The position numbers and the translations under genes are program-made. A stretch of 64,000 nt of DNA, from the NCBI GenBank assembly GCA_902773005.1, contig CACYCS010000004.1:1-64000 (forward strand), written 5' to 3'. This document shows, in pieces, positions 89 through 7,707 of this stretch. Positions within the stretch are counted from its first letter, which is position 1, and the number at the start of each line of letters is the position of its first letter. The stretch comes from an uncultured Erysipelotrichaceae bacterium. GTDB lineage: Bacteria; Bacillota_I; Bacilli_A; RFN20; CAG-826. The notes under the pieces are model-generated. The model was not told the DNA's origin. It searched no databases and was given only the letters and a program-made list of their open reading frames with translations.

Positions 89-116
89 TAAAAAATAGAG
101 AACCGAACGGGGCTCT
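89..116 (-). terminator. Intrinsic terminator of the structured RNA
   Basis: On the minus strand AGAG/CTCT and CC/GG pair around a CCGTTC loop (97-116), with a two-base bulge, followed by ATTTTTT (90-96). It closes the RNA gene before the next leftward promoter. Confidence 0.6.
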
Positions 117-345
117 AATCGCCAGCCTTGGATTCTCTAACACAAATATACGCCCCCTATCTTCACCTGTCAAATTGGTTGAAGGGGGATACAAAAGAAA
201 ACCCTATTGCTAGGGTTACGGATGTCTTCTCGCCTTGCGGCGTCCTGAAGCGTGGTCGTTACATCAAGCCCCGTGGAGGACTCCCTCTAAGGATGGTCAG
301 GTCCATCGTTTAGGTTCGCAGTCCGGCCAAAGTTTCCTTTGACAC
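89..345 (-). ncRNA. Probable independent structured RNA of about 255 nt, class not recognised
   Basis: The minus strand carries a promoter, a chain of hairpins and an intrinsic terminator, with no plausible ORF. Helices in transcript order (plus-strand coordinates): CAAAG-GAAA-CTTTG (328-341); GGACT/AGTCC (320-324 with 278-282) enclosing GATGG/CCATC (292-307); GATGT/ACATC (261-265 with 221-225) enclosing GCC-GCAA-GGC (232-241); AACCCTA-GCAA-TAGGGTT (200-217); CCCCC/GGGGG (184-188 with 153-157) around a second inner stem. Three helices end in GNRA tetraloops only when read on the minus strand, which fixes the orientation. I did not find the conserved RNase P core (GAGGAAAGTCC), the tRNA-like T arm of tmRNA or the SRP motif AGGAAGCAGCC. 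It could be a leader of the gene further left, but it has its own terminator. The class is unknown to me. Confidence 0.6.
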
Positions 346-349
346 CCAT

Positions 350-378
350 ATTATTCAATCAACGATTCCCATTCGCAA
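350..378 (-). promoter_or_regulatory. Promoter of the structured RNA
   Basis: Minus strand: TTGCGA (373-378), 17-bp spacer, AATAAT (350-355). Transcription would begin near 343-345, just before the first GAAA-capped hairpin. TTGCGx is also the -35 form seen at several protein genes in this window (9083, 13247, 19297). Confidence 0.55.
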
Positions 379-576
379 TACCATTTCCAGCAGCCGTCTC
401 GGCGAGCGAACGTTATTTATAGCCTCGTTTGCGATGAAAATCGCGATTCGACATAGTCAGCCAAGGCAGGACGACGGATTTCCCGGTTTGCAGTAAGCTA
501 CCATGGCGCACTCAAAAAACCGCCGACGTTTTCAGGTGATCGACCCTACACTGTGCATATTTCGACTTTTTGTTTA

Positions 577-5949: not shown

Positions 5950-7440
5950 TTAATGGATGCCCTTCATCTCGTGCTTGCGGGCATACATTGATTTATCCGC
6001 TCTAACGAATACGTCATCAACGCAGGCGTCTTTTACAGAATCGTATAGGGAGTAGCCAATGGCTGCGGAAATATGATTCTTCTCAATCTCGGCCTCGTTT
6101 GGCTCGCCGCAGATGACGCTGCTATTGAATTGCTCCACGAGCGAATCGATATTGGCGTATATTTCGTCTTTAAGCACCACGACGAATTCGTCTCCGCCGA
6201 CTCGATATACCGGCGCATCCTTAAACGTTGCCTTGATGATCCTGCAAAGTTCGATAAGCGCGGCATCGCCCTTGTCATGGCCGAACTTGTCGTTCGTCTC
6301 TTTGAGATAGTTCAAATCGATCATGGCAATGCCAAATTCGAAGGTCTCGTGCTCTCTGATCTTCTGATTCATTATATCGGTATCTTTGATATAGGCGATC
6401 TTGCTCCGCGCGCCAGTGAGCGCGTCGGTATTGGCGAGTTCTGTCATGCGCTCGGTCTCGCGCTGCGAAGCTGCAAGCTCTTCGTTGATGCGGACCAATT
6501 CATTGAACTTGTTGTAGATATCGGCCTCCATCTCTTTCATGTTTTCGGCAAGATCGGCCAATTCATCGTTTACATTCACCTTTAGCTTTGAGAATGCCTC
6601 GTGGTTGGCTTCTGGGCGGCTTGCATCATATGTTTTAGTGGCCTTTTGCAAAGTTTTCACCGGTTTTACCAGCGTGAAGTGCACGACGAAGATACCGATG
6701 AAGGACAAAAGGATGACGCTTGCGATCAAATAGATGAACAAGCGGACAATCGCGTTTGCCTGATTGCTTCTGACGGCGGCCATCGAAATATCGACAAGGG
6801 CATAGCAAATGATGTTATGGTCTGCGTCATAAACCGGAGAACCGGCGGTGACGAGGATTTCGCCATCGCGCTCGGAATGGTAGATGGATGCAACAAATCC
6901 GAGATCGTGATCCTCGAGAAGCGGATAATCCTCTTCGTAAAGATGGTCGACGACGCCAATTGGAAATGCCTCGGACTCGCTGTCGTAGCAGACAAAAACG
7001 CAGGCTTTCCTATCGAAGTCCACCCATCCTAGATATACGCCGAAGGTGTTGCGGGTTGAGTCCTTGACTGCTTTGAGCTCGGATTGAAGGGTGAGGTAGT
7101 TTTGCGATTGCCGAACCGAATCGAAGGACGCGAGATAGGCGTCATGAGCTGGAGTGCCTTCGTTTTCGTCACGGAACAGTTTGTCGCTGCTGTTATAAAT
7201 CTCGACGACGGAATCGGTGACTTCCTTGGTGAGAGTTTTGTCGATGGTCGCGGCGACGGTGGCGCTTATATCCGTCGCGAGTCCTTTGTAGTTCTCTTTG
7301 TTTGCGCTGGAACTCACTAGCGAGAAATGGACCATGGCAGTCTCGGCTAGAACCAAACCGAAAAGAAGAATCATGATGATCGTCTTTGCTCGAATCGTTA
7401 TGCGGAACTTTCTTGTTTTCTTCTCTTCGTTTGCTGCCAT
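5950..7440 (-). CDS. Membrane diguanylate cyclase (sensor-HAMP-GGDEF)
   Basis: A 496-residue protein that should make c-di-GMP from GTP. TM1 about 19-42; extracytoplasmic sensor about 43-232 (Cache-like: FGVYLGWVDF, AGSPVYDADHNIICYALVDI); TM2 about 233-257; HAMP about 258-315; short coiled coil; GGDEF domain about 338-492 with TDALTGARSK, DLNYLKETND and the active-site signature GGDEF at 415-419. The RxxD inhibitory site expected five residues before GGDEF is absent (FKDA instead), so product feedback on the enzyme is unlikely. The start ATG has no Shine-Dalgarno sequence: the bases before it are the U-tract of the riboswitch terminator. Expression is likely set by the upstream c-di-GMP-I riboswitch. 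Confidence 0.88.
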   Translation of the reverse strand: MAANEEKKTRKFRITIRAKTIIMILLFGLVLAETAMVHFSLVSSSANKENYKGLATDISATVAATIDKTLTKEVTDSVVEIYNSSDKLFRDENEGTPAHDAYLASFDSVRQSQNYLTLQSELKAVKDSTRNTFGVYLGWVDFDRKACVFVCYDSESEAFPIGVVDHLYEEDYPLLEDHDLGFVASIYHSERDGEILVTAGSPVYDADHNIICYALVDISMAAVRSNQANAIVRLFIYLIASVILLSFIGIFVVHFTLVKPVKTLQKATKTYDASRPEANHEAFSKLKVNVNDELADLAENMKEMEADIYNKFNELVRINEELAASQRETERMTELANTDALTGARSKIAYIKDTDIMNQKIREHETFEFGIAMIDLNYLKETNDKFGHDKGDAALIELCRIIKATFKDAPVYRVGGDEFVVVLKDEIYANIDSLVEQFNSSVICGEPNEAEIEKNHISAAIGYSLYDSVKDACVDDVFVRADKSMYARKHEMKGIH

Positions 7441-7486: not shown

Positions 7487-7562
7487 TTGAAATGGGGTGC
7501 AACTGGCTGCCCGAGACGGGCCCTCTAGCTTTGCGTCGCCGGATTGCTCCGGTTTTGCCGAT
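7487..7562 (-). promoter_or_regulatory. c-di-GMP-I (GEMM-I) riboswitch aptamer
   Basis: Minus strand, directly upstream of the GGDEF gene. It matches the GEMM-I consensus block by block: GGCAAAACC (7551-7559), a CCGG-AGCAAT-CCGG hairpin, the invariant GACGCAAAGC (core at 7528-7536), then GGGCC, a second hairpin and GCAGCCAGTTGC (about 7490-7507). A TATAAT-type -10 (minus, about 7563-7570) lies just upstream, so the aptamer begins almost at the transcript 5' end. Placement before a c-di-GMP-producing enzyme implies feedback control. Confidence 0.88.
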
Positions 7563-7707
7563 ATTATTATAAACATATTGACTAATCTATGTTTATATTT
7601 ATTTTCACTTTTTACTGCATATTTCGGCCTATATTGCCCATTATTATCTCCCTTTGCTGACATTTAGATGCCATAGATTGAGAATCCGAGTGAGGGCTTA
7701 TGCGAAT

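Follow-up and report, generated by a model that had tools for sequence, protein, structure and literature searches.

At the very start of contig C4, in a 2.3-Mb assembly that is 82% complete, the minus strand carries promoters, hairpins and terminator-like structures, which raises the question of which RNAs are made here and what they might do. The window, i.e., the whole stretch of DNA that was analysed, covers the first 64,000 nucleotides of this contig. The first-pass annotation had proposed one stand-alone transcript of ~255 nt, possibly from an undescribed RNA family. Here we describe two adjacent genes, RNA A and RNA B, and trace the affinities of RNA A to the drum RNAs (RF02958). Rfam lists drum merely as an sRNA gene with no stated role, and in the open-access literature searched we found drum RNA mentioned in a single methods paper. 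The genes that lie beside RNA A relatives and drum RNAs point to a partner for this family.

Results

Two RNA genes at the contig start

The minus-strand promoter is present as first described (TTGCGA, 17-bp spacer, AATAAT), as are the hairpins at 343-326, 324-278, 265-221 and 217-200, with a GAAA tetraloop in the first and GCAA tetraloops in the third and fourth. The supposed 255-nt unit is nevertheless two genes, because the 217-200 hairpin with its U-run (217-191) is itself a terminator, and a second promoter and a second terminator follow (Table 1). The terminator-like structure that had been assigned to the whole unit (~137-89) does exist but belongs to RNA B, and the hairpin reported at 188-153 falls within the promoter of RNA B and is not preserved in a sister genome. 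Transcript ends of both RNAs were predicted from promoter spacing.

The relatives of RNA A also have an A/T-rich, -10-like box just 5' of the RNA, and the RNA A terminator has the same position as the terminators that precede PBECR4 genes at two related loci (L034 and L037). No tRNA or tmRNA was found in the window. A c-di-GMP-I riboswitch (RF01051; 49.8 bits) lies at 7495-7569 on the minus strand of the window, upstream of an ORF (5950-7440) that looks like a GGDEF protein.

Table 1. Features at the start of the window, in window coordinates and in the order of minus-strand transcription
Feature	Position	Strand	Basis or remark
Element C, repeated noncoding, ~125 bp, sharp edges	393..518	(-)	directly upstream of RNA A insert
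RNA A promoter, -35 box TTGCGA	373..378	(-)	sequence
RNA A promoter, -10 box AATAAT	350..355	(-)	17-bp spacer to -35; sequence
RNA A, drum-like RNA	about 191..343	(-)	predicted transcript ~150 nt including terminator
Helix H1 GUCAAAG:CUUUGGC, GAAA loop	326..343	(-)	97% of cells paired, one compensatory pair
Helix H2 (GGAC:GUCC) around H3; loop ACCUGA	278..324	(-)	compensatory changes in 7/14 pairs
Pseudoknot strand 1 CCUGA, in H3 loop	297..301	(-)	invariant within drum-like subgroup; covaries across drum RNAs
Helix P4 (GAUGU:ACAUC) around pseudoknot strand and H6 (CGCC-GCAA-GGCG)	221..265	(-)	compensatory changes in 4/9 pairs
Pseudoknot strand 2 UCAGG	244..248	(-)	invariant within drum-like subgroup; covaries across drum RNAs
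RNA A intrinsic terminator AACCCUA-GCAA-UAGGGUU + UUCUUUU	191..217	(-)	sequence
RNA B promoter TTGACA-17-TATATT	-35 173-168, -10 150-145	(-)	sequence
RNA B, ~50-nt sRNA GAGAAUCC..GGUUCUC + U-run	about 89..138	(-)	family matches, neighbours, alignment

Relatives and fold of RNA A

A BLASTN search followed by covariation analysis, as the first-pass annotation had envisaged, was carried out for RNA A. BLASTN matched one other genome (69% identity across 140 bases), and covariance models built first from this pair and then from three members found strong copies in genomes G190, G165 (two copies) and G017, with matches at four other loci at E<1e-18. Scans of 224 genomes from the family and 395 from the class gave no further convincing copies. 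The intact subgroup has five members only, all in one bacterial family, and G017 also holds a degenerate, toxin-less copy (L038). A short pattern of the conserved core matched 19 genome contigs, of which only L041 and L045 are RNA A, and also returned 120 viral stretches. Two relatives are found in MAGs labelled Bacilli, one from goat rumen (JAFSVB010000014) and one from reindeer (CAJOMQ010000008). Phage and plasmid records held no DNA related to the locus.

The fold, made up of H1, H2, H3, the pseudoknot, P4 and H6, has 94.9% of cells paired across five distinct sequences. Twelve base pairs show changes on both sides and none of 500 shuffles did as well, in a test on only five sequences, aligned to a model of this very structure, with shuffles that ignore relatedness; the signal was lost when the 3' partners were slid. 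A long-range P1 stem taken from the MFE structure (GGGUGUC:GACAUCC) was rejected as unsupported, with 57 of 500 shuffles in the same test. Folding z-scores against shuffles were -1.97 for the minus strand, -1.10 for the plus strand and -2.19 for the segment 352-190 alone, and the covariation backs the fold much more strongly than these scores do. At the level of sequence, the homologues and the covariation support RNA A as a real structured RNA gene with its own promoter and terminator.

RNA A as a divergent drum-like subgroup

An Rfam scan gave no gathering-level match at the locus and no credible match when E was relaxed to 10. The earlier suggestion of an undescribed family stands in so far as the window copy lies below every Rfam threshold, but two relatives match drum sub-threshold: L037 and L033 score 31.9 and 29.0 bits against a gathering score of 43 (E 0.009 and 0.043 over all families). 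The same scan returned no drum match for L034, L009 or the window RNA. Because the window RNA has no drum match even at E 10 and falls short of the gathering score of 43, its link to drum runs through its relatives. The covariance model of the drum-like RNAs (R2) gave no match to true drum RNAs.

The shared architecture was seen in a check of hand-chosen helix strings, in which H2, H3, the pseudoknot and P4 are complementary in 11 of 11 RNAs (five drum-like, six drum) and H6 in all seven RNAs where it was named; two H2 strings were imperfectly placed, that of L239 aligning earlier in the sequence than planned and that of L240 overlapping its H3 string by one base. The window copy has the helix order and the loop pseudoknot of drum. 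This pseudoknot reads CCUGA:UCAGG in the window's subgroup, and GCUGG:CCAGC, CUGG:CCAG, GUUGG:CCAAC, UCAGG:CCUGA or UUAGG:CCUAA in drum RNAs. Since two relatives match drum sub-threshold and have the same helices and loop pseudoknot, RNA A is best placed in a divergent, drum-like subgroup, and its identity as a drum-like RNA gene is well supported.

PBECR4 genes beside drum-like and drum RNAs

At four loci (L009, L033, L034 and L037) an intrinsic terminator comes after the RNA, with a PBECR4 ORF ~10-50 nt further on. The protein of the L009 locus matches this family (Pfam PF18813) with E 4.7e-15 and 56.9 bits against a cut-off of 27, and all four loci are above the family cut-off. The ORF at L033 is interrupted by an in-frame stop codon, so this toxin copy looks broken. 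PBECR4, for which a BECR fold has been proposed (PMC5512222), is a predicted endoribonuclease; its alignment has an invariant His (H46 in the L075 protein) and a C-terminal Thr/Ser that is mostly conserved. Searches of the toxins with NCBIfam and PADLOC gave no match except a weak AbiH score, a related PBECR4 protein matched no PDB sequence, and a weak structural model (pLDDT 66) had no significant fold match in the PDB. No relatives of the toxin were found in viral contigs and phages, and the word PBECR4 was not found in the open-access literature searched.

True drum RNAs were found in two further families of Bacilli and on plasmids of Enterococcus and Streptococcus; they have the same architecture as the drum-like RNAs, and PBECR4 follows most of them. 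Among 277 Bacilli genomes sampled there were only two above-threshold drum matches, L239 and L240, each directly before PBECR4. Two further matches (L241 and L242) were set aside, being below the gathering score and having no PBECR4 ORF. With the L034-type toxin as query, tblastn matched PBECR4 proteins on 11 Enterococcus plasmid records, and the RNA upstream of PBECR4 in plasmid locus L232 is Rfam drum at 51.4 bits. A wider protein search raised this to 21 plasmid records with PBECR4 (20 Enterococcus, one Streptococcus), many of them near-identical. Drum was scored in L232, L245, L246 and L247, and upstream sequence or annotation was examined in those and in L233; PBECR4 lies downstream at L232, L233, L245 and L246, and only a PBECR4 fragment was detected at L247.

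Across the order, 22 of 245 genomes have a PBECR4 match (20 above the cut-off). A T-run lies within 80 nt before the start of 22 of the 23 PBECR4 genes of the order, compared with 4 of 48 long ORFs of the window. Most of the other PBECR4 genes in the order carry tandem ToxI-like pseudoknots: 14 further loci have an upstream RNA with H-type pseudoknots and an A-rich loop, with two to four pseudoknots per RNA spaced roughly 30-34 nt. Against shuffled flanks, 36 of 38 of these pseudoknots reach the 5% level, a figure biased towards a positive outcome by the removal of candidates scoring <12 before testing, and obtained with a purpose-written finder and score on loci picked by eye. In the loci scanned, these RNAs (L059-L077) had no Rfam match. 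A PBECR4 gene in the window's own genus (L074) has a further, unclassified leader and a T-run upstream.

The toxin-less copy in the window and its neighbours

PBECR4 was not found in the window's host assembly, and since this is 82% complete, a toxin could lie in the missing part. No convincing toxin remnants were found in the window. The window copy keeps its promoter, every helix, the pseudoknot and the terminator, unlike the decayed L038. Element C, which precedes RNA A, is 90-91% identical in G024, G030 and G006, and the DNA that follows it in G024 and G030 differs from that in G006 and the window. In the sister genome G006 it is joined directly to the RNA B promoter region, without RNA A, and therefore the ~210 bp that carry RNA A are either an insert here or a deletion there.

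Toxin-less drum RNAs also occur on plasmids. In ten Enterococcus plasmid records the L232 module is matched at 90.6%, but only across its RNA (21% of the query) and not across the toxin; few independent events are probably behind these ten. L243, the one record read from end to end, has a drum match of 50.2 bits at 1844-1941 and a terminator without a U-run, and PBECR4 was not detected in it; the gene map of another (L244) is the same. Genes of the Fic and Abi families lie near the drum RNA in both L243 and L244.

RNA B is present in 18 of the 224 genomes of the family (E<=0.01), and in other genomes it occurs without RNA A. It is conserved across several genera, with a tandem pair of copies in G165; its core stem varies very little and shows little covariation, and its promoter is also present in L002, with a spacer of 17, and in L218, with one of 16. 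At five other loci RNA B is convergent to a short ORF. In four of them (L002, L006, L221 and L222) this has its intact length of ~165 aa and its end reaches 11-14 nt into RNA B; in the fifth (L224) it is a fragment of 103 aa, separated from the RNA by 155 nt. Pfam assigns the proteins of L002 and L006 to MuF_C, and those of L221, L222 and L224 are similar by eye only. No such partner was found in the window or at most remaining loci, nor MuF_C in the window's host assembly, and the sister-genome copy (L218) keeps a truncated stretch of the same downstream DNA. By analogy, our guess is that RNA B could be an antitoxin for a second PBECR-type toxin, orphaned here. Copies of RNA B lie near tmRNA genes in G001 and G030 (L002 847-1245 and L219 869-1269), and this vicinity is a possible integration hot spot.

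Discussion

We consider it probable that drum-like RNAs such as RNA A, and the drum RNAs themselves, act as antitoxins against PBECR4, in modules with the layout of type III systems but with a different toxin family. In the relatives of RNA A, the promoter, the RNA, the intrinsic terminator and the PBECR4 gene would form one module. Since most transcription would end at the terminator, the RNA would be made in excess, and occasional read-through into a presumably co-transcribed gene would yield PBECR4. The pseudoknotted RNA may then bind the putatively toxic nuclease and block it, as in type III systems; that drum neutralises PBECR4 is what we infer from the arrangement of the genes and from the examples of type III systems and AbiF. 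The window copy might be a free antidote that would shield its host from incoming PBECR4 modules, or else a recent relic.

It is quite possible, if rather short of an even chance, that a toxin-antitoxin locus lost its toxin and left the window copy behind as a dead relic. There is no toxin beside it, the contig edge is near, the mobile-looking pieces C and B lie around it, and L038 in G017 illustrates a decayed, toxin-less copy; against this, the window RNA, unlike L038, retains all helices, pseudoknot and terminator. It is unlikely that RNA A is merely a cis-acting leader, i.e., an attenuator or riboswitch that governs read-through into PBECR4 without binding the protein. The order of RNA, terminator and ORF suits attenuation equally well, and the RNA upstream of AbiF likewise reduces toxin-gene expression (PMC12373285), but a leader would have nothing to control in the window and in the ten toxin-less Enterococcus records. 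Moreover, unrelated RNA folds, tandem pseudoknots and drum, occupy the same slot, which suggests that the RNA is aimed at the protein. Chance folding of intergenic DNA, or a single 255-nt RNA from an unknown family, would fit the modest fold z-scores of about -2 and the lack of a gathering-level Rfam match, but is very improbable given the covariation among homologues and the separate conservation of A and B.

The antitoxin reading gives drum, an Rfam family without a stated role, a concrete and testable partner. It points to a type III-like class built on a toxin family other than ToxN, some of whose modules sit on plasmids of Enterococcus and Streptococcus. It also suggests that an antitoxin RNA can be maintained where its toxin is absent. 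More tentatively, and with somewhat less than even confidence, drum RNAs may be the antitoxins of a large unrecognised class of RNA-protein toxin-antitoxin systems built on PBECR toxins, with the orphans of the window and the Enterococcus plasmids as selected antidotes (anti-addiction or anti-defence) and RNA B playing the same part for MuF_C toxins.

Comparison with known systems

RNA A shares with drum (RF02958) the order of H2, H3, loop pseudoknot and P4 and similar GGAG and ACC motifs, and its relatives, like most drum copies examined, have PBECR4 directly downstream. The subgroup differs from drum in a sequence below the gathering score and in an extra 5' hairpin, H1, and the window copy differs in having no toxin. 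AbiF (RCd22) offers a second parallel, a small RNA with promoter and terminator (abiF motif RNA, RF03085) upstream of a toxic protein, which the RNA neutralises by direct binding (PMC12373285); Rfam gave no match to RF03085 in the window or the relatives.

Type III loci are defined by tandem repeats, a terminator and a toxin (PMC5086642). Like ToxIN, CptIN and TenpIN, the modules described here consist of a promoter, a pseudoknotted RNA, a Rho-independent terminator and a gene for a (here predicted) ribonuclease. An RNA and terminator stand directly before the toxin gene in four relatives and not in the window copy. The toxin is not of the ToxN, CptN or TenpN type, its match being to Pfam PBECR4 only, and no sequence relationship to ToxN was found. 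The covarying structure makes the drum-like RNA one compact unit, whereas type III antitoxins are usually tandem repeats, as the pseudoknots at many other PBECR4 loci indeed are. A further parallel to the window copy is the phage pseudo-ToxI, a stand-alone, toxin-less RNA that suppresses a type III toxin (PMC5086642; original PMC3475682). Both are antitoxin-like RNAs without a toxin, but pseudo-ToxI consists of ToxI repeats on a phage, whereas the window holds a drum-like RNA, a putative antitoxin, in a bacterial contig.
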